Assembly (NCBI GenBank): GCA_027063755.1
Contig: JAMORD010000085.1
Location: 1-7,822 of the forward strand
Direction: 5' to 3'
Source of the DNA: a bacterium
GTDB lineage: Bacteria; Coprothermobacterota; Coprothermobacteria; Coprothermobacterales; JAADFF01
Length of the DNA stretch: 7,822 nt
The notes under the pieces are model-generated. The model saw only the letters and a program-made list of their open reading frames with translations, was not told the origin of the DNA and searched no databases. The position numbers were made by a program, and so were the translations under genes. Within the stretch, counting starts at the first letter, position 1; each line of letters opens with the position of its first letter. This document shows, in pieces, positions 1-7,822 of the stretch.

Positions 1-113
1 TACAGAGGAAAAGGCAGGTTTCCACCCCCTATGGGTAGGCTAGAAACTAGAATTTGTGGATGCAATACCAAACGATGCTATAAGTTTCCACCCCCTATGG
101 GTAGGCTAGAAAC
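1..113 (-). CRISPR. Leader-proximal end of a CRISPR array (two repeats, one full spacer)
   Basis: Two identical 30-bp repeats lie at 18-47 and 84-113, each beginning GTTTCCACCCCC and ending GGCTAGAAAC on the plus strand. They enclose a 36-bp spacer at 48-83. Positions 1-17 are the end of another spacer, so the array continues left of the window. Read on the minus strand the repeat starts GTTTCTAGCCTACC and ends GGTGGAAAC. This resembles the known family of repeats with a TAGCCTACC core and a GAAAC 3' end found with type I-B and type III systems in Clostridia and thermophiles. That orientation makes 84-113 the first repeat after the leader and is why I assign the minus strand. Both repeats are intact, as expected near a leader, whereas distal repeats are often degenerate. 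No cas genes are in the window, so the subtype is not established. Confidence 0.93.
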
Positions 114-354: not shown

Positions 355-397
355 AACAATGGGCAATACGAGGATATATTATTGGAGGTGAGTGCCA

Positions 398-640
398 GTG
401 ATAGCTACTGCAATAGCACTGACTATCGTGTCCTTTATTGTTGTTGCTTATCTCATTTATAAAAATGGAAAGCTCCATAGGGTAGATGCCTTATTACCGT
501 TTATATTGGCACTCCCAGGGTTGTATCTGCATCCGGAACTTGCTATATATATAGCCATTATGACTGTGTTTTATACTGTTATTATTGTCCTTATATTTAC
601 GGTATATAAGGGTGCCCAGAAAGGCTTTTTAGAAGAGTAA
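398..640 (+). CDS. Small multi-pass membrane protein, unknown function
   Basis: A very hydrophobic protein of about 80 residues with no recognised catalytic motif. Counted from the upstream GTG at 392, hydrophobic segments span about residues 3-23, 32-47 and 50-72. A short basic linker (KNGKLHR) follows the first segment, and the tail is charged and ends LEE. The order helix, K/R-rich turn, hydrophobic pair with a central HPEL loosely recalls DUF2304-type small membrane proteins, often found near glycosyltransferases, but this one is shorter and the likeness is only by eye. Two GTG starts are possible. GGAGG at 384-388 lies 3 nt from the GTG at 392 and 9 nt from the GTG at 398; the second spacing fits the other genes here. 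The gene stands alone between the CRISPR leader and a terminator. It is most likely a real gene, given its strong ribosome site and coherent membrane pattern. Confidence 0.72.
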   Translation: MIATAIALTIVSFIVVAYLIYKNGKLHRVDALLPFILALPGLYLHPELAIYIAIMTVFYTVIIVLIFTVYKGAQKGFLEE

Positions 641-749: not shown

Positions 750-784
750 GCAAAGAGTGCTAATATTGGCCCTCTTTGCTTTTT
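750..784 (+). terminator. Rho-independent terminator after the small membrane protein gene
   Basis: GCAAAGAG (750-757) pairs perfectly with CTCTTTGC (772-779), with further possible pairing inside the loop (759-762 with 767-770). TTTTT follows at 780-784. The U-tract is on the plus strand, so it stops rightward transcription before it runs antisense into the NTPase and hflKC genes. The right arm lies inside the last codons of the convergent NTPase gene. On the minus strand the same hairpin is followed by AAACTT, a poor U-tract, so termination of the leftward operon here is less certain. Confidence 0.65.
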
Positions 785-1257
785 AGTATGTTTTTATATG
801 GCACTACTTCCCTATCTAGGTTAAATAATTTGTCTGCAGAGCATCTTATATGCTCAACCAGTGGATGCACATCTTTAATGGGAATGGTAACAATGATGTC
901 TTTATGGTCTTGCCACAATTTTTCTACTACCTTGGCAAATTCTATGTTTAGAAGTTCCATCTTGCCTATCTCATCTATAACTATTGTGGTATCTTCTGGT
1001 GTACTGATGAGTTTTTCTATTACAGGTTTGAGGTTTTCTGGGAACACGGCATATTTGCCTACTTTAAAGGGGGAGTGGCTACCCACTCGCGCCAGAGGTA
1101 GCCTTTCTCCCCATGTTGTTACAATATCAAAGCCATATCGTCTGCCTGACCGTCTAATTTCTTCTGTGTAAAATCCTACAGCATCTATGTGTTTAACTAT
1201 TTCCCTGACCAGTGTTGTTTTTCCGCTTCTTGGTGAGCCTGTTATGGCTATTTTCAC
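760..1257 (-). CDS. THEP1-type nucleoside triphosphatase
   Basis: A small P-loop NTPase of 165 residues, close to the usual length of the THEP1 family (about 170-180). That family was characterised in the thermophile Aquifex aeolicus and has a human relative, NTPCR. These enzymes hydrolyse ATP, GTP and other NTPs slowly; their cellular role is unclear. Visible features are the Walker A motif GSPRSGKTT at residues 7-15, the family signature GFYTEEIR...GRRYGF at 28-43, VGKYAVF near 66-72, and a Walker B segment VIDEIGKMEL at 93-102. The start is GTG, with GGAGG 9 nt upstream inside the last codons of hflC. The start overlaps the hflC stop as GTGA, so it is translationally coupled as the last gene of the hflK-hflC operon. 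It probably acts in the cytoplasm; no membrane segment is seen. A nucleotide kinase is the main alternative, but the 28-43 signature favours THEP1. Confidence 0.88.
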   Translation of the reverse strand: MKIAITGSPRSGKTTLVREIVKHIDAVGFYTEEIRRSGRRYGFDIVTTWGERLPLARVGSHSPFKVGKYAVFPENLKPVIEKLISTPEDTTIVIDEIGKMELLNIEFAKVVEKLWQDHKDIIVTIPIKDVHPLVEHIRCSADKLFNLDREVVPYKNILKSKEGQY

Positions 1258-2126
1258 GGAGATACACCTCCAAATTTTATGAGGTATCTGAATAGGTCAC
1301 TGTCAGGAGATATGACTATAATGGTGTTTTTTAGGTGTGTGCTGTAAAAGTCCATGGTTTGCAGGAATGTATAGAATACAGGGTCAAGTTTGGCAACTTC
1401 TGAGATAATTCTCTGTGCCTCAGCATCTCCTTCACCTTTTAATATTTCTGCCTTTTTGTATGCATCTGCCAGTATTTCTTTGGCTGTTCTGTCGGCTTCT
1501 GAGCGAATGCGTATGGCCTCACTTTGACCTTCGGCTCTGAGTTTGGCGGCTTCTCTCTGCCTTTCGGCTATCATAGACTGGTATATGGCCTTTTCGTTTT
1601 CGGCTGGTATGAAGACCCTCTTAAATCTTATGACCTCTACACTAACCCCATAACCTTTGGTGGTAAGGCGGGCGTTATCTATTATTTCTTTCTGTATGGC
1701 ATCTCTTTTTTTATAAAGTATATCGTCGTACTTATTTTTGCCTACAACAACTCTAACAGCAGAATATATGGCATCGTCAAGTCTCTCTTGCACACCGGGT
1801 ATGGTTTTTACCCTTTGATAAAAAGTTAATGGGTCTGTAATACGAAATAGGGCTATTGTGTCCATAACGATATTTTTCTTGTCTTGAGTAACCACTGTAA
1901 CAGGCTCGGCATCGTATTCAAGTAGTTTTTTGGTGTATATATGCACTGTGTCCATGAAGGGAATACGAACATACAAACCAGGTGATTGTATGACCTTAAT
2001 AACTTTACCAAATCTCAAAACTACAGCCTGTTGGTCTGTGCGAACAATAAAAAGTGCCGATGTACTAATAAGCAATATGGTGATGACAATAATGATGCCT
2101 ATGGCTTTCCATATTTTCCCTTTCAT
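1254..2126 (-). CDS. hflC: HflC, SPFH-domain membrane protein (FtsH modulator)
   Basis: HflC pairs with HflK in a membrane-anchored SPFH (stomatin/prohibitin) assembly. In E. coli this cages FtsH and restrains its proteolysis of membrane proteins. The 290-residue protein has one N-terminal membrane helix at about residues 6-28. The SPFH domain follows, opening with DQQAVVLRFGKV (31-42). Next comes the hallmark MIAERQREAAKLRAEG (185-200), leading into an Ala/Glu/Arg-rich coiled coil to about 245. The C-terminus has the typical HflC pattern FYTFLQTMDFY...ISPDSDLFRYL (251-282). Length is near the family norm. The ATG start overlaps the hflK stop as ATGA, with a GGTGG-type ribosome site upstream. 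Its own last codons (FGG) hold the GGAGG of the next gene. The large domain is expected outside the cytoplasm, as in E. coli. Confidence 0.95.
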   Translation of the reverse strand: MKGKIWKAIGIIIVITILLISTSALFIVRTDQQAVVLRFGKVIKVIQSPGLYVRIPFMDTVHIYTKKLLEYDAEPVTVVTQDKKNIVMDTIALFRITDPLTFYQRVKTIPGVQERLDDAIYSAVRVVVGKNKYDDILYKKRDAIQKEIIDNARLTTKGYGVSVEVIRFKRVFIPAENEKAIYQSMIAERQREAAKLRAEGQSEAIRIRSEADRTAKEILADAYKKAEILKGEGDAEAQRIISEVAKLDPVFYTFLQTMDFYSTHLKNTIIVISPDSDLFRYLIKFGGVSP

Positions 2127-3133
2127 TTGTCTTCACCACCTTGAGAGGAGATATTCTGCTCAAGAGACTGAATGAGATTATCAAGGTTGATAATTTTCAC
2201 ACCATCTCCTACAACGATGAATTTCACTCCATTTTCAGACATCTTTTTCAGGGCCTCGTAGAAGAGCTCTGTTTCAACAACTTTGGGGGCTTCTGAGTGT
2301 CTTTGTATAAGTAGTTTTAACCTACCGGCACGACCTTCAGCCTCTTTAATGCGCTGATATTTGTATGCTTCGGCTTCATTAATGGTTTTAGAAGCTGTAC
2401 CTTTTACCTCAGCAAGTACTTTGTTGGCATAACTCTGGGCTTCCAGTATAGTCTTTTCTTTCTCCGCCCTTGCAGAGATAACATCGTTAAATGCCCCTTG
2501 AACTTCATCAGGTGGCATAACATCCTGTATCTGCACAGCTGTTATATTTAGTCCATATCCAAGGTTTCTCATAATTTCCTGTATACGTTGTTTGGTTTCT
2601 GTTTGCACAAGCTCTTTGCCTGTTGTCAGTATTTCATCAAATGAGTGAGATGCCACAACCTGCCTGAATACACTTTCAGCAGTGTCTCTGATAATTTTCT
2701 CCAATCTTGTTTTATCTGATGGTAGATTAATAACATATTGGGCCGGGTCTGATACTTTATATTGCATGGCCCAGTATACATGAACGATTTTGTTGTCTGA
2801 TGTAAGCATTTTGCTTTCGTTGGGAACATCTTTATATTTGGCCGGTGGTCCTGGGTCTATGGTACGGTAGCCAAATTCATATCGTCTTATTTCCTCTACA
2901 GAGACGATTTGGACACTATCAATAAACGGTATTTTGAAGTGAATGCCGGCATCTTTGATGTCCATAAGCTTACCAAAACGAAAAACAACGGCTTGGGAGC
3001 CTGTTGGAACAATGTAAAAAGAGCTGTATAGGAGATATAAGATAAATAAGGCGATGATAATACCCCATATGGATATTTTACGGTTTTTTATACTTATATG
3101 CTCCCTTGTAGGAATTTTAAACTCTGATTGCAT
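2123..3133 (-). CDS. hflK: HflK, SPFH-domain membrane protein (FtsH modulator)
   Basis: First gene of the hflK-hflC-NTPase operon and partner of HflC. From the chosen start it is 336 residues. A short polar N-terminus precedes a membrane helix at about residues 22-41. The SPFH domain begins VPTGSQAVVFRFGK (42-55). It includes the HflK-type stretch MLTSD...WAMQYKVSDP around 109-130. An Ala/Glu/Lys-rich coiled coil runs from about 215 to 280, and the tail is hydrophilic. The N-terminus lacks the long Gly/Pro-rich extension of proteobacterial HflK, which accounts for much of the shorter length. I chose the ATG at 3133 because GGAGG (3142-3146 on the minus strand) lies 8 nt upstream; an ATG seven codons earlier (3154) would put that ribosome site inside the gene. 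Assignment as HflK rather than another stomatin relies on the motif and on the adjacent hflC. Confidence 0.94.
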   Translation of the reverse strand: MQSEFKIPTREHISIKNRKISIWGIIIALFILYLLYSSFYIVPTGSQAVVFRFGKLMDIKDAGIHFKIPFIDSVQIVSVEEIRRYEFGYRTIDPGPPAKYKDVPNESKMLTSDNKIVHVYWAMQYKVSDPAQYVINLPSDKTRLEKIIRDTAESVFRQVVASHSFDEILTTGKELVQTETKQRIQEIMRNLGYGLNITAVQIQDVMPPDEVQGAFNDVISARAEKEKTILEAQSYANKVLAEVKGTASKTINEAEAYKYQRIKEAEGRAGRLKLLIQRHSEAPKVVETELFYEALKKMSENGVKFIVVGDGVKIINLDNLIQSLEQNISSQGGEDK

Positions 3134-3269
3134 ATACTTCACCTCCACCGCCATTGTATCATGAGTGTGTTGGTGTAGATGGTTTTTATTAAACTCTTTT
3201 CACATGCTGAGCTGTGGTGTATTGAGTGATGTATTGTGGTAAAGTCTATATATAGCGGAGGTGATGAAG
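3134..3269. promoter_or_regulatory. Divergent intergenic region between hflK and the plus-strand cluster
   Basis: This short region must hold the promoters of two divergent operons, but I see no convincing -35/-10 pair on either strand. On the plus strand TTCACA (3199-3204) resembles a -35, followed 17 nt later only by TTGAGT. TATATATA at 3247-3254 would start transcription on top of the ribosome binding site at 3257-3261, so it is unlikely as a promoter. On the minus strand TTTAAT (3193-3188) and TACAAT (3158-3153) are possible -10 boxes without good -35 partners. The region may use activated promoters or non-consensus sigma recognition. Confidence 0.35.
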
Positions 3270-4235
3270 TTGAGTGCTTTATACGATAAGAAATTTGTGC
3301 AGATATCAGGTGGGCTGCACGGTTTTGCTATAGAGATGCCGGTAGATGACTGGAAAAAGACATATGCTTTGTCTTCTCATAATGTTAGGGTTTTATCGGC
3401 ACCAGGTGTTTTTAGGGCTGTTGTTATAGGTGAAACAGAGGAAGAGGTTGAAGATCTATTTCGTATGATTAGAGAGAAGGTTCACCATATAGACGATACG
3501 GTAGATGTTGAGAGATTCCTTTCTATTATTCGCAGGGTCATTTATAAATATCTGGAGGATAAAGTTGTTGGTGATATTGCCCCTTATGTTGTTTCGTCGG
3601 TTTCTACACTTGGGTTTGACGATGTTGAATCCAGTTTGGTGGTTATTCCTACTCCTGAGACCACATATGAAACAACGGTTTCAGGTATTAGTGGTGTACT
3701 CGTTATGAAGATATGGTTTGTACCCATTGGTAAGACAGAAGATATTTTGTATCTTATGGGGGCATTGCCGGCATTTAATCCGTCAATTATTATAGATAGT
3801 GTAGATATGCCGAGCACTATTAAGGTGCCGACTATTGTGGCATCTGGAGTGGCTTCTGATAGGTTGGGTAATACCTTTGTTGTGGCACCGTGGATTATTG
3901 TACCTACCCAAGAGGAGAAAAAAGGAAGAACTTTTATAGATAATATTTTTTCCATTACATCTATGGATTTCTTGCCTCAAGAACTTATAAAGCGTAATAC
4001 GCTTGATGCGTTTAGGGGTAGATTGAAGACATCGCTATCTATTGTATTTAACCGACCTTCTGCCAGGCTACTGACGCTTATGGATATTACATCTCCCTTG
4101 CGTTCAAGGCTACTTCCAGAGGATATTGTGGCGATAATTCCCCGCATGGACCTCATTGGGTTTAAGCGAATCTTCAGGGTTATCAGGACATCTCCTGTGA
4201 AAGATATAGTGGCATATCCGGAGGTGAAAGTATGA
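3270..4235 (+). CDS. Unknown soluble protein A, first gene of the plus-strand cluster
   Basis: Not recognised. About 321 residues, no signal peptide or obvious membrane helix, so probably cytoplasmic. Beta-rich hydrophobic stretches alternate with charged helices such as GETEEEVEDLFRMIREKV (about residues 54-71) and VERFLSIIRRVIYKYLEDK (about 80-98). A Val/Ile/Pro-rich middle (SLVVIPTPETTY, IWFVPIGKT, VAPWIIVPTQ) precedes a basic C-terminal third with several Arg-Leu pairs. No Walker, Rossmann or nuclease motif is seen. I place the start at TTG 3270, because GGAGG at 3257-3261 is 8 nt upstream. The in-frame GTG at 3261 and ATG at 3264 overlap or abut that site. Its stop overlaps the next start as ATGA, so the two are translationally coupled. 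Coding status is very well supported by length, ribosome site and coupling; function is unknown. Confidence 0.82.
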   Translation: MSALYDKKFVQISGGLHGFAIEMPVDDWKKTYALSSHNVRVLSAPGVFRAVVIGETEEEVEDLFRMIREKVHHIDDTVDVERFLSIIRRVIYKYLEDKVVGDIAPYVVSSVSTLGFDDVESSLVVIPTPETTYETTVSGISGVLVMKIWFVPIGKTEDILYLMGALPAFNPSIIIDSVDMPSTIKVPTIVASGVASDRLGNTFVVAPWIIVPTQEEKKGRTFIDNIFSITSMDFLPQELIKRNTLDAFRGRLKTSLSIVFNRPSARLLTLMDITSPLRSRLLPEDIVAIIPRMDLIGFKRIFRVIRTSPVKDIVAYPEVKV

Positions 4236-5203
4236 ATATTATTGTAGATAGAAAGTATTCCACTATCAATAGTGATCCTTCTCTAAGCTTCTTTGCCCTG
4301 TCGGTATCTGCCAAAGATGTGCATACAAGGGCACTTGCCGTTTACTTTAGTGCTATGATGGGATTTTTGTTAGATATAGATGTGCCACTGAAGGAAGATG
4401 GTTTATATGCGGTTTCTGAGGGTGTTTATCTCTTTGGTAAGCAGATGACAGGAGAGTATTTACTGTATATTGTAGGAGATTATGAAGGTGTAGACAAGGT
4501 AATGGTGGATGTATTTAACTTTTTGACGGGGAAAAATGGCAACTTAGAGGAGATGGGGAAAGTCTTTGACCGTATGTCTGCTTTGGTTCCACATATTCCT
4601 GCTTATCCTTCCCCTGTTACAGCTCTATATAGGTTTGTGTGGGAGAAGATGCTTCATATTGAACCGACTGACGATGTAGATGTTATGTACCTCAATAAAA
4701 TCAGTCTTATTTTGAAACGCTCTGATACAGCACTGGCCTTTACCAGCCTTGAAAAATATGCAACCCATGTTAGTGATAGGCCTGTTCTGGTAGTAGGAGA
4801 TCTGCCTGCGGAGTATGAGTATGTAGATAAACTTGTTAGTGGTATTAGTTATAAGGGAAGGCTCTATTTGCATCCTCTTAGGAGTTTAGATGATGTGTAT
4901 TATGGATATGTCACCAAACTCTGGTATCAAGATAAGGGATATGGTGTCATATATGAAAGGATAAGAGACTATCTACTTCTATATGTATACGGAAGAAAGA
5001 GTATTCCTTCACTTCCTCGTATAGATGATATGGAACACTATAGATTACTGTGGCGAGAGATGTTTGTTGATCCAATAGAGCGAATAGAGATTCTTTCTGT
5101 TGCCGGACATGTTCTTACCGATGATGTAGATATTGCCGATATTGTAGATGGTATGTGGGATGATGTGATGACAACTGAGTTTCAAATAAGGGGGAGAGAT
5201 TAG
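4232..5203 (+). CDS. Unknown soluble protein B
   Basis: Not recognised. It has 323 residues, almost the same length as the preceding product, and no membrane helix. It is rich in Asp, Tyr and Val and likely acidic, with clusters such as EPTDDVDVMYL (about residues 144-154) and TDDVDIADIVDGMWDDV near the C-terminus (about 298-314). The segment YLLYIVGDYEGVDKVMVDVF (about 76-95) is a strand-turn-helix unit resembling AVVIGETEEEVEDLF in the upstream protein, a weak hint of a shared fold. The ATG start follows GGAGG by 7 nt and overlaps the previous stop by 4 nt. Its TAG stop shares one base with the next GTG start. Tight coupling to a soluble neighbour upstream and a membrane protein downstream suggests a subunit of a membrane-associated complex; that is inference only. 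Confidence 0.82.
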   Translation: MNIIVDRKYSTINSDPSLSFFALSVSAKDVHTRALAVYFSAMMGFLLDIDVPLKEDGLYAVSEGVYLFGKQMTGEYLLYIVGDYEGVDKVMVDVFNFLTGKNGNLEEMGKVFDRMSALVPHIPAYPSPVTALYRFVWEKMLHIEPTDDVDVMYLNKISLILKRSDTALAFTSLEKYATHVSDRPVLVVGDLPAEYEYVDKLVSGISYKGRLYLHPLRSLDDVYYGYVTKLWYQDKGYGVIYERIRDYLLLYVYGRKSIPSLPRIDDMEHYRLLWREMFVDPIERIEILSVAGHVLTDDVDIADIVDGMWDDVMTTEFQIRGRD

Positions 5204-6081
5204 TGGAAGACACGACAAAAACACTCTTGCCTTTGCCGGTTAGAATAAAGCATATCTCTTGGGATGTGTGGGTGTTTTTTATGTTGTTTGTTTGGATTGG
5301 TGTTTTCCATATATTGTTTTCCCCCATGGTTGTTAAAAAACAGCTTTTGCTTGAATGGCTACCGGAAATGGCTAAAAAAGCTCCGGAGGCCATAAAGATG
5401 GGCAAAGATGTAGAAGCTGCAATTAGTATGGCATCTACACTAACTTTTACACTGTTGGATATATCTCTTAGGAGTATTGCATGGTGGATTTCTACATATG
5501 CTGTGCTTAGGTATGCGATTTCAGGTAAAGGTATTAAAGCGTTTCTCGTTCCTGTAGAGGATAAATACATGCTTGTTGCCGATAGACTGAAAACTTATAG
5601 AGTGATGATACTTTTTGCAACGGTACTTGCTGCTGGACTTTATGCAGTAAAAGATTATATAATATACACTTTGCTTGTATCCAAGGGTATAGATCCTACC
5701 TCTGCTGGTTGGTTGTTTATTAGTAATCTTGGGGGCATTATATCTATGATTGTTGTAACTATTGTCTGGGTGCTTCTTCCCGATAAATGGCTTGCCAAGA
5801 TGTGGCTTGTTAGAGCTGCACTGAATAAAGAAAAAAATACGGTGCTGTCTATTGATATTGCTCCACGGAATTTTGTAGGATACTTTGTTGCTTTTGCTAT
5901 GGTATCTGCTGTGGTTGTGCTTATCACATATCCCAGCGTTGCCTACTTTTTACCACTTGTTTTTCTCCCACTCTTGATAGAATGGTGGATGGGGGGCTTG
6001 GTTGTTTCTTTGTTTGTGAAAATGCTAACAGGGTTTGTAAAACCATCTATAAGTATAGAGAGCGAGGGTATATGGGTATAA
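5203..6081 (+). CDS. Integral membrane protein, about six helices, unknown
   Basis: Not recognised. The 292-residue product has hydrophobic segments at about residues 22-40, 79-102, 133-158, 170-192, 224-243 and 246-272, giving roughly six membrane helices. A charged loop at about 44-75 contains EMAKKAPEAIKMGKDVE. A hydrophilic loop at 105-132 and a basic loop at 195-213 (DKWLAKMW...NKEKN) probably face the cytoplasm. There is no transporter signature or ATP-binding motif. Distant similarity to Yip1-like membrane domains crossed my mind but is too weak to claim. The GTG start overlaps the previous TAG stop by one base and follows a GGGGAGAG ribosome site at 5190-5197. It overlaps the next gene by 10 nt. 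It is probably the membrane core of whatever the cluster encodes. Confidence 0.83.
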   Translation: MEDTTKTLLPLPVRIKHISWDVWVFFMLFVWIGVFHILFSPMVVKKQLLLEWLPEMAKKAPEAIKMGKDVEAAISMASTLTFTLLDISLRSIAWWISTYAVLRYAISGKGIKAFLVPVEDKYMLVADRLKTYRVMILFATVLAAGLYAVKDYIIYTLLVSKGIDPTSAGWLFISNLGGIISMIVVTIVWVLLPDKWLAKMWLVRAALNKEKNTVLSIDIAPRNFVGYFVAFAMVSAVVVLITYPSVAYFLPLVFLPLLIEWWMGGLVVSLFVKMLTGFVKPSISIESEGIWV

Positions 6082-6782
6082 AGGAATTATATGTTGTAAT
6101 GCCAAAATGGGAACGATGTGCAGGTCGTGAATGGCTTTATCATCTTGTAGGTGAGTTTATGCGAAGACATTATCGGGTCACGGTTATTGCCCCTATGTCT
6201 ATGTATCCACCTGATATATCTGTAGATGTGTTTTATATTCCCCGTGAGGTGCTGACTCCATATACATCAGCACCATTTAGTATGCCATCACATATAAGAG
6301 ATCTCATTCTCTCTGGGAAAAAGGTAATTATTTCTTTGCCCTATAGTTCGTTGGTGCTATCTTTGTTGTCTGTTATGAAAGATATTAAAGGGCAATATTA
6401 TGTTATATGGCATCATATGTGCAAACCCACATTCTTGGGGGTGGAGAGAAAGGCTCACGCAAAGGTTCTTGAATATGCCAAAAAGGTGTTTGTGCCATAT
6501 CCTGGGATTCCCCTGCCAACCGCCAATGCTAATGTTGTCAGTGCCCCATTACCCCGAATAGATGTATCCTTTACGACATATTATCTCAGGGTGTTTTTAC
6601 CAAACTTAAAACTATATGAGCCTTTTCCCTATAGAGCAATGCTTAAGGTTAAGGCTGGTGCTACTCCGGCTTCATTGCCGGGTGAGTGGAAAGAGATATG
6701 GAGAGAAGTGCTTGATAGCGAACTTCCCACACTGAGGGATACTTTTGTATGGTATAGCCATGAGATATGGGAAGGGTTTTAA
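6072..6782 (+). CDS. Possible glycosyltransferase-like protein, N-terminal GT-B half only
   Basis: A 236-residue protein with no membrane helix. Its first half resembles the N-terminal domain of GT-B (GT4-type) glycosyltransferases. A first strand (KELYVVMP) leads to AGREWLYHLVGEFMRRHYRVTVIAP (17-41), matching the pattern G-x-E-x-x-x-x-L-x-x-x-L-x-x-x-G-H-x-V-x-V. Then come ISLPYSS and YYVIWHH strands (about 87-115) and AKKVFVPYPGIPLPTANANVVSAP (136-159), placed like the interdomain linker. The donor-binding second domain with its E-x7-E motif is absent; residues 160-236 look unrelated. It could be a reduced or degenerate enzyme, a partner protein, or a false likeness. The ATG at 6072 has GAGGG only 3 nt upstream. 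The frame is open further upstream (from 5982) but that part lies wholly inside the previous gene. It overlaps the previous gene by 10 nt and the next by 38 nt. Confidence 0.68.
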   Translation: MGIKELYVVMPKWERCAGREWLYHLVGEFMRRHYRVTVIAPMSMYPPDISVDVFYIPREVLTPYTSAPFSMPSHIRDLILSGKKVIISLPYSSLVLSLLSVMKDIKGQYYVIWHHMCKPTFLGVERKAHAKVLEYAKKVFVPYPGIPLPTANANVVSAPLPRIDVSFTTYYLRVFLPNLKLYEPFPYRAMLKVKAGATPASLPGEWKEIWREVLDSELPTLRDTFVWYSHEIWEGF

Positions 6783-7374
6783 AACTTCTTTTTTTACGGT
6801 TATACTTGTTATTGGTTTAGGATTTGTATTTTCTTTGATGTCTCATAGGCCTTCGTCTCAATCATATGTTTCTTTTCCACAGTATTCCCATAAGCAGGTG
6901 AAAATACTACAGCGATATCTTGACTGTAAACCCTACATAGGTTATGAAAATATGTATAAGGTGTGGCGGTATGAAGCTCATATGGCTTTTGAAATGAATA
7001 TTGTTGTTGCTCCTGTATATAGAGCCAAAAACATTGCTACTTCTATTGCTCCTAGGGTTGGTTTGCCTCCAGACGATAAAGACCTTATAGCCTTTGCCAA
7101 TATTATTGTTATGAGGGAAGATCTTATATCATGGTACGGCAAACATGTTGAGCAGAAAAGTGTTCGTTTATTTCAGAAAACACATGTGGGATATCTGAGA
7201 TGGAATGAAGGTAATGGGTGTTTAGATTATTCATTTCTTCCTATATATGCTCTTCCATATCATCTTAGAAATATAGATATAGAAGCCACATGGGGAAAGG
7301 CAAGACAAATGGGACTAACTATTACAGGGTATGTTGATGGAATTTATATAGAAAAAGTTTTGTATGGGCACTAA
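6745..7374 (+). CDS. Single-pass membrane-anchored protein with extracytoplasmic domain, unknown
   Basis: Not recognised. The 209-residue product has a short basic N-terminus (MRYGKGFK) and one membrane helix at about residues 14-32. A domain of about 175 residues follows, predicted outside the cytoplasm by the positive-inside rule. That domain has only two cysteines, C61 (LDCKPY) and C159 (GNGCLDY), which could form a disulphide. It is rich in Tyr and Trp, with motifs such as GYENMYKVWRYEAHM and LDYSFLPIYALPYHL. There is no lipobox or clear signal-peptidase site, so it is probably anchored rather than released. I keep the TTG start at 6745 because GAGGGA (6734-6739) lies at a normal distance. 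The ATG at 6760 has no ribosome site. The start lies 38 nt inside the preceding gene, implying coupled translation. Confidence 0.76.
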   Translation: MYGIAMRYGKGFKTSFFTVILVIGLGFVFSLMSHRPSSQSYVSFPQYSHKQVKILQRYLDCKPYIGYENMYKVWRYEAHMAFEMNIVVAPVYRAKNIATSIAPRVGLPPDDKDLIAFANIIVMREDLISWYGKHVEQKSVRLFQKTHVGYLRWNEGNGCLDYSFLPIYALPYHLRNIDIEATWGKARQMGLTITGYVDGIYIEKVLYGH

Positions 7375-7460
7375 TTGTTAAGAGTATTAAAAACTTGGCT
7401 ATTCCTATTTGTGAGAATCGTTTTATAATTTCAATGACACCCATAGGAATGGAGGCCGTT

Positions 7461-7822
7461 ATGACACCAGATGATGCACTGATGAATGAAATTATGGCTG
7501 AAATGGGATTTGACCCATACAAAGGGAAGTTTGGTAAAGGCTGGTTTCGGTATATAAAGGCTATAAAGGGAGGTCTTCTTGGAGAAGTTGGTTCCTATTA
7601 CCTTCATGACTATATTCTCATAGAGTATCCCTCCAAAGAAGACATTATTTCTATGCTAACCCCCGTAGATGGGGTTATGACGCAGAGAATTGCCCTTGTA
7701 GCAGACCATTGGGACGAGAAACATGTTTCTAAGAGTTTCTGGTTTGGTTTAAAGGGTTTTGCCGAGGTGGCTTATATCTCACCTCATGCAGAAGGGAAAT
7801 ATGCTCCTAAAAAGTTTCGCGA
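7461..7822 (+). CDS. Partial unknown protein, cut by the right window edge
   Basis: Not recognised. An open frame runs uninterrupted from the ATG at 7461 to the last base, giving 120 residues so far, with the C-terminus missing. GGAGG at 7451-7455 lies 5 nt upstream and decides the start. In-frame ATGs at 7449 and 7434 and a TTG at 7395 are alternatives, and the frame stays open back to 7338, inside the preceding gene. The protein begins MTPDDALMNEIMAEMGFDPY. It continues with mixed charged and aromatic sequence, including FGKGWFRYIKAIKGG and LVADHWDEKH. No membrane segment is seen. It has the same strand and codon style as the five genes before it, so it is probably the next member of the cluster. 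From the 7461 start it would leave an 86-nt gap, the only real gap in the cluster. Confidence 0.7.
   Translation, partial: MTPDDALMNEIMAEMGFDPYKGKFGKGWFRYIKAIKGGLLGEVGSYYLHDYILIEYPSKEDIISMLTPVDGVMTQRIALVADHWDEKHVSKSFWFGLKGFAEVAYISPHAEGKYAPKKFR

Follow-up and report, generated by a model that had tools for sequence, protein, structure and literature searches.

The described systems that lie closest to the locus considered here are the orphan operons that are confined to single lineages of sparsely sampled phyla, the GT-B glycosyltransferases (GT4), the YIP1 family (PF04893) and the CstA locus of Coprothermobacter. CstA belongs to a family of peptide/pyruvate transporters. PMC9132574 puts genes of unknown function at 40-60% of predicted microbial genes, and an operon of orphan genes is therefore to be expected where a lineage has been thinly sampled. 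The window analysed is an entire contig of 7822 bases from a 1.5-Mb draft genome. It carries a block of five overlapping genes, P1-P5, which is flanked on one side by hflK and on the other by a sixth gene, P6 (Table 1).

Organization of the locus

The five genes lie head to tail on the plus strand between positions 3270 and 7374 and overlap by exactly 4, 1, 10 and 38 nt. Five overlapping genes had been claimed by the first-pass annotation, and both the coordinates and the overlaps were confirmed. Its description of the cluster as unrecognised and translationally coupled is upheld for five of its six genes, P1-P5, and fails for the sixth. Shine-Dalgarno-like stretches precede the starts of P1-P5, and a purine-rich site is located within the preceding gene for every later start of the block (P2-P5). 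The block is present in a single copy in its own genome. The GC3 of P1-P4 resembles that of the neighbouring hflK and hflC, so that there is no clear sign in the sequence of a recent acquisition of the block; the GC3 of P5 is lower (0.26).

Upstream of the block, the genes for a THEP1-type NTPase, HflC and HflK are all encoded on the minus strand. The edge of the contig is occupied by a pair of repeats that resembles the end of a CRISPR array, and no cas genes were found alongside it within the window. An open reading frame of 82 residues with two to three hydrophobic stretches follows these repeats downstream and is without a credible family match.

Table 1. Coordinates of the features of the window and of the related loci in other genomes (L006, second species of the genus; L023 and L024, Coprothermobacter-like genomes; L022, distant genome)
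Feature	Position	Strand	Remarks
Two perfect 30-nt repeats	18-47, 84-113		36-nt spacer; contig edge
Open reading frame	392-640		82 residues
THEP1-type NTPase	760..1257	-	PF03266, E 6.4e-35
hflC	1254..2126	-	TIGR01932, E 1.4e-55, above its cut-off
hflK	2123..3154	-	TIGR01933, E 2.9e-69, above its cut-off; divergent neighbour of P1-P5
P1	3270..4235	+	~321 aa, soluble, no known family; start TTG 3270, alternatives ATG 3264 and GTG 3261; SD GGAGGTG
P2	4232..5203	+	323 aa, soluble, no known family; start ATG, 4-nt overlap with P1 stop; SD GGAGGTG inside P1 end
P3	5203..6081	+	292 aa, polytopic membrane protein, 5-6 segments; start GTG, 1-nt overlap with P2 stop
P4	6072..6782	+	236 aa, soluble; strands and helices predicted to alternate over residues 1 to ~140, a Rossmann-like order of low confidence
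P5	6745..7374	+	~209 aa; one N-terminal membrane segment, residues ~10-35; ~170-residue domain
TATAAT hexamer	7424-7429		P5-P6 gap
P6	7461..7822	+	ATG 7461; partial, cut by contig end; 142 aa in L006; first gene of P6-cstA-X unit
P6 family, other loci	L006:6840-7268; L023:9434-9877; L024:9094-9546; L022:8742-9167
Small post-cstA proteins	L006:8864-9782; L023:7402-7773
Flagellin gene	L006:9750-10916		PF00669, PF00700

Conservation and selection

Retention of the gene order had been proposed as a check on the cluster, and the cluster is indeed kept in the sole other searched genome of the genus, that of a second species (contig JAADFF010000027.1). The order of P1-P5 and all four overlaps are identical there, and so is the position of hflK beside the block. 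The proteins of the two species are 81% (P1), 78% (P2), 80% (P3), 83% (P4) and 68% (P5) identical, at a dS of 0.9-1.6, which is near saturation. The dN/dS ratios are 0.083, 0.095, 0.089 and 0.088 for P1 to P4 and 0.276 for P5. By comparison, the THEP1-type NTPase has a ratio of 0.15, and HflK and HflC each have one of 0.03. A third-codon-position bias is present in P1-P5. Because order and overlaps are kept at 68-83% identity and a dN/dS of 0.08-0.28, P1-P5 are, on this comparison, real genes under purifying selection and not chance open reading frames. Their rate of evolution is about three times that of HflKC. The ratio of P5 (0.28) is about three times that of P1-P4, and P5 could be only loosely constrained.

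In both species, hydropathy analysis gave 5-6 membrane segments for P3 and, for P5, a single one close to its N-terminus. In P1, P2 and P4 it gave borderline peaks only, which are missing from the orthologues. The start of P5 is ambiguous: TTG 6745, which gives the 38-nt overlap, and the in-frame ATG 6760, which gives an overlap of 23 nt, are both present in both genomes.

Relatives of P1-P5

No match of P1-P5 above the curated cut-offs was found in Pfam or NCBIfam. The best Pfam match of P1, 'Ribonuclease 2-5A' (E 0.008), is under the cut-off and missing in the orthologue, and was rejected. In PADLOC, no curated match was obtained and no component profile of anti-phage defence was matched by P1-P5; the only match in PADLOC-DB was that of P2 (E 0.0058), and it covered no more than part of a type I specificity model. 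PHROGs yielded no credible match for P1-P5, the sole match of any kind being that of P2 (E 1e-4 over 49 residues) to a family of unknown function. A search of the PDB sequences with the profiles of P1, P2, P4 and P5 gave nothing credible. P1 and P2, which are of similar length, were also considered as paralogues, and this was rejected at an hhalign probability of 0.3%.

The P1-P5 profiles were run over about 290 genomes, with all nine members of the phylum among them, and credible matches were found only in the own genome and in the congener. Matches in other genomes were weak (E 0.002-0.1) and short, many of them running across stop codons. A match of P3 in genome G035 (E 4e-4) lies inside a gene resembling an MFS-type transporter and was taken as chance, as was the best match of P1 in genome G003 (E 0.17), which lies inside a flagellar operon. 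With P3 as the query, GTDB contigs yielded the congener alone. Within these roughly 290 genomes, where no credible relative was found outside the genus, the lineage specificity of the block holds. A match to a known operon, or related genomes that do not keep the cluster, had been named beforehand as evidence that would speak against the block, and neither check refuted it: P1-P5 matched no known operon, the congener keeps the block, and the remaining seven members of the phylum are simply without the genes.

The sixth gene and the cstA unit

P6 had been counted as a member of the cluster, and this was not borne out. It is separated from P5 by a gap of 86 nt (85 nt in the congener) and heads a P6-cstA unit that is found without P1-P5. 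The TATAAT hexamer in the gap is conserved amid otherwise diverged sequence; no good -35 element was found. In the congener, P6 is followed by cstA (PF02554). Relatives of P6 were found in one distant genome and in three Coprothermobacter-like ones; in two of the latter (L023 and L024) P6 is located directly upstream of cstA and P1-P5 are absent. The same arrangement, seen in L006, L023 and L024, is met with in more than one family. Since the Coprothermobacter-like genomes keep P6-cstA without P1-P5, P6 is, as judged from gene neighbourhood, the head of an older P6-cstA unit that is separate from the block.

The likeness to the CstA locus of Coprothermobacter extends to cstA itself and beyond. 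The CstA proteins of the congener and of a Coprothermobacter-like genome share 56% identity, and the small open reading frame after cstA in the congener is 24% identical (E 1e-9) to the counterpart in L023. The difference is that the likeness covers P6 only, P1-P5 being absent there. The P6 family consists of proteins of about 140 residues, has no Pfam or NCBIfam model and, in two families of the phylum, occupies the position immediately before cstA; no cstA was found in the examined flank of its relative in the distant genome. The small post-cstA proteins of L006 and L023 are related across families and are likewise without a family model. The congener has two of them in a row, the first of which was compared with the L023 counterpart.

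A flagellin gene is present in the same region of the congener, and a further genome of the order (L026) has a flagellar operon; motility is therefore likely in parts of this lineage.

Possible function and alternative explanations

The chances are about even that P1-P5 constitute a translationally coupled operon that is specific to its lineage and encodes a membrane-associated complex. In such an operon, which as far as the searches reach is confined to one genus, probably of the phylum Coprothermobacterota, P1-P5 would form one transcription unit, expressed through the overlapping stop and start codons, and their products would join into one membrane-associated assembly. P3 would be the polytopic core of the assembly and P5 a single-pass subunit with its C-terminal domain probably outside; P1, P2 and P4 would be cytosolic partners whose amounts are balanced by translational coupling. 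This explanation is supported by the order and the 4, 1, 10 and 38 nt overlaps, which are identical in the two species despite the dS of 0.9-1.6. It is weakened by the restriction to two genomes, so that the linkage could be phylogenetic inertia, and by the fact that operons often combine unrelated functions. Co-transcription, complex formation and an envelope role are what we infer for P1-P5, and the envelope complex proposed by the first-pass annotation would likewise be a reading of membrane topology. The annotation had also called the block a lineage-specific or undescribed system. The former stands, with no credible relative outside the genus in about 290 genomes; the latter does not follow, conservation being that of two congeneric MAGs and the analysis having yielded no assignable function, motif or fold. 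It is unlikely that P1-P5 are a previously undescribed membrane complex with folds absent from the PDB that became fixed in one thermophilic lineage.

P1-P5 may instead belong to known families from which they have diverged strongly (P4 could be a GT-B enzyme, for instance, and P3 part of a known membrane family), act in an ordinary envelope-glycan or lipid pathway and look like orphans only owing to the thin sampling of the phylum. This is possible, if somewhat doubtful. Profiles built from only two sequences are weak in remote detection. The order of elements predicted for P4 is Rossmann-like. Glycosyltransferases, mixed with other proteins, account for several of the top 50 Foldseek matches of P4, the model used being an unusable one (AlphaFold, AF2, mean pLDDT 38; that of P1, at 35, is equally unusable). 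However, the same search gave no match at E <= 0.001, the best (E 0.004) being to an unrelated protein, and P4 has no match in Pfam, NCBIfam or the PDB sequences. An hhalign comparison of P4 with five glycosyltransferases of E. coli (WcaL, WcaI, WcaC, WaaB and WaaG) gave scores no better than those of 60 column shuffles, in a weak test of low power made with a small profile. Nor does P4 leave space for a C-terminal half such as GT-B enzymes possess. The 'GT-B-like half protein' that P4 had been taken for is left with no sequence support and with a low-confidence fold that is only vaguely Rossmann-like.

An origin of P1-P5 in a mobile element or virus, of which the block would be a domesticated remnant, would be consistent with orphan genes confined to one genus, with the nearby CRISPR-like array and with the one weak PHROG match of P2. 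Nevertheless, no relative of any of the five proteins was found in IMG/VR, tblastn matched neither P1 nor P2 in phages and did not match P4 in plasmids, and no PADLOC match was worth reading. The GC3 of P1-P4 is like that of the neighbours, and the chromosomal site, beside hflK and P6-cstA, is common to the two species; we regard such an origin as highly improbable. A somewhat better, though still poor, chance is given to P1-P5 being unrelated orphans that are adjacent by descent and have no joint function. In its favour, the carriers are two congeneric genomes only; against it, all four overlaps are kept exactly at near-saturated dS, and translational overlap usually goes with co-expression.

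Comparison with known systems

P4 may resemble the GT-B glycosyltransferases (GT4) in the alternation of strands and helices predicted over residues 1 to ~140 by an unreliable model (pLDDT 38) and differs from them in having no sequence match in Pfam, NCBIfam or the PDB sequences. The C-terminal nucleotide-sugar-binding Rossmann domain of the GT-B fold is missing: no PF00534-like match was found, and at 236 aa in both species P4 is too short to hold a second domain after its first ~140-170 residues. P3 resembles the YIP1 family in its 5-6 membrane segments and in a GKG motif after the second segment that appears conserved by eye. A profile of 31 YIP1 domains, evaluated with held-out positives and several hundred background open reading frames, gave P3 0.9 bits compared with 48-173 bits for held-out true members, and the assignment was rejected. 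An earlier, smaller YIP1 profile was also negative for P3, Pfam gave no YIP1 match for P3, and both the own genome and the congener (G001) were negative for the family.

If the complex is real, P1-P5 would be a lineage-specific membrane machine, with five proteins well defined for structural work, of a deep-branching group of thermophiles that has been little studied. More readily useful than the block are two by-products, the ~140-residue P6 protein family linked to CstA and the correction that removes the sixth gene from the cluster. Orphan operons restricted to one lineage are common where a phylum is sparsely sampled. P1-P5 share with them tight packing, purifying selection and the lack of relatives outside the genus, and show nothing distinctive beyond their membrane-rich make-up. 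P1-P5 are a sound catalogue entry, one of very many orphan operons, and do not amount to evidence for a system of a new kind.
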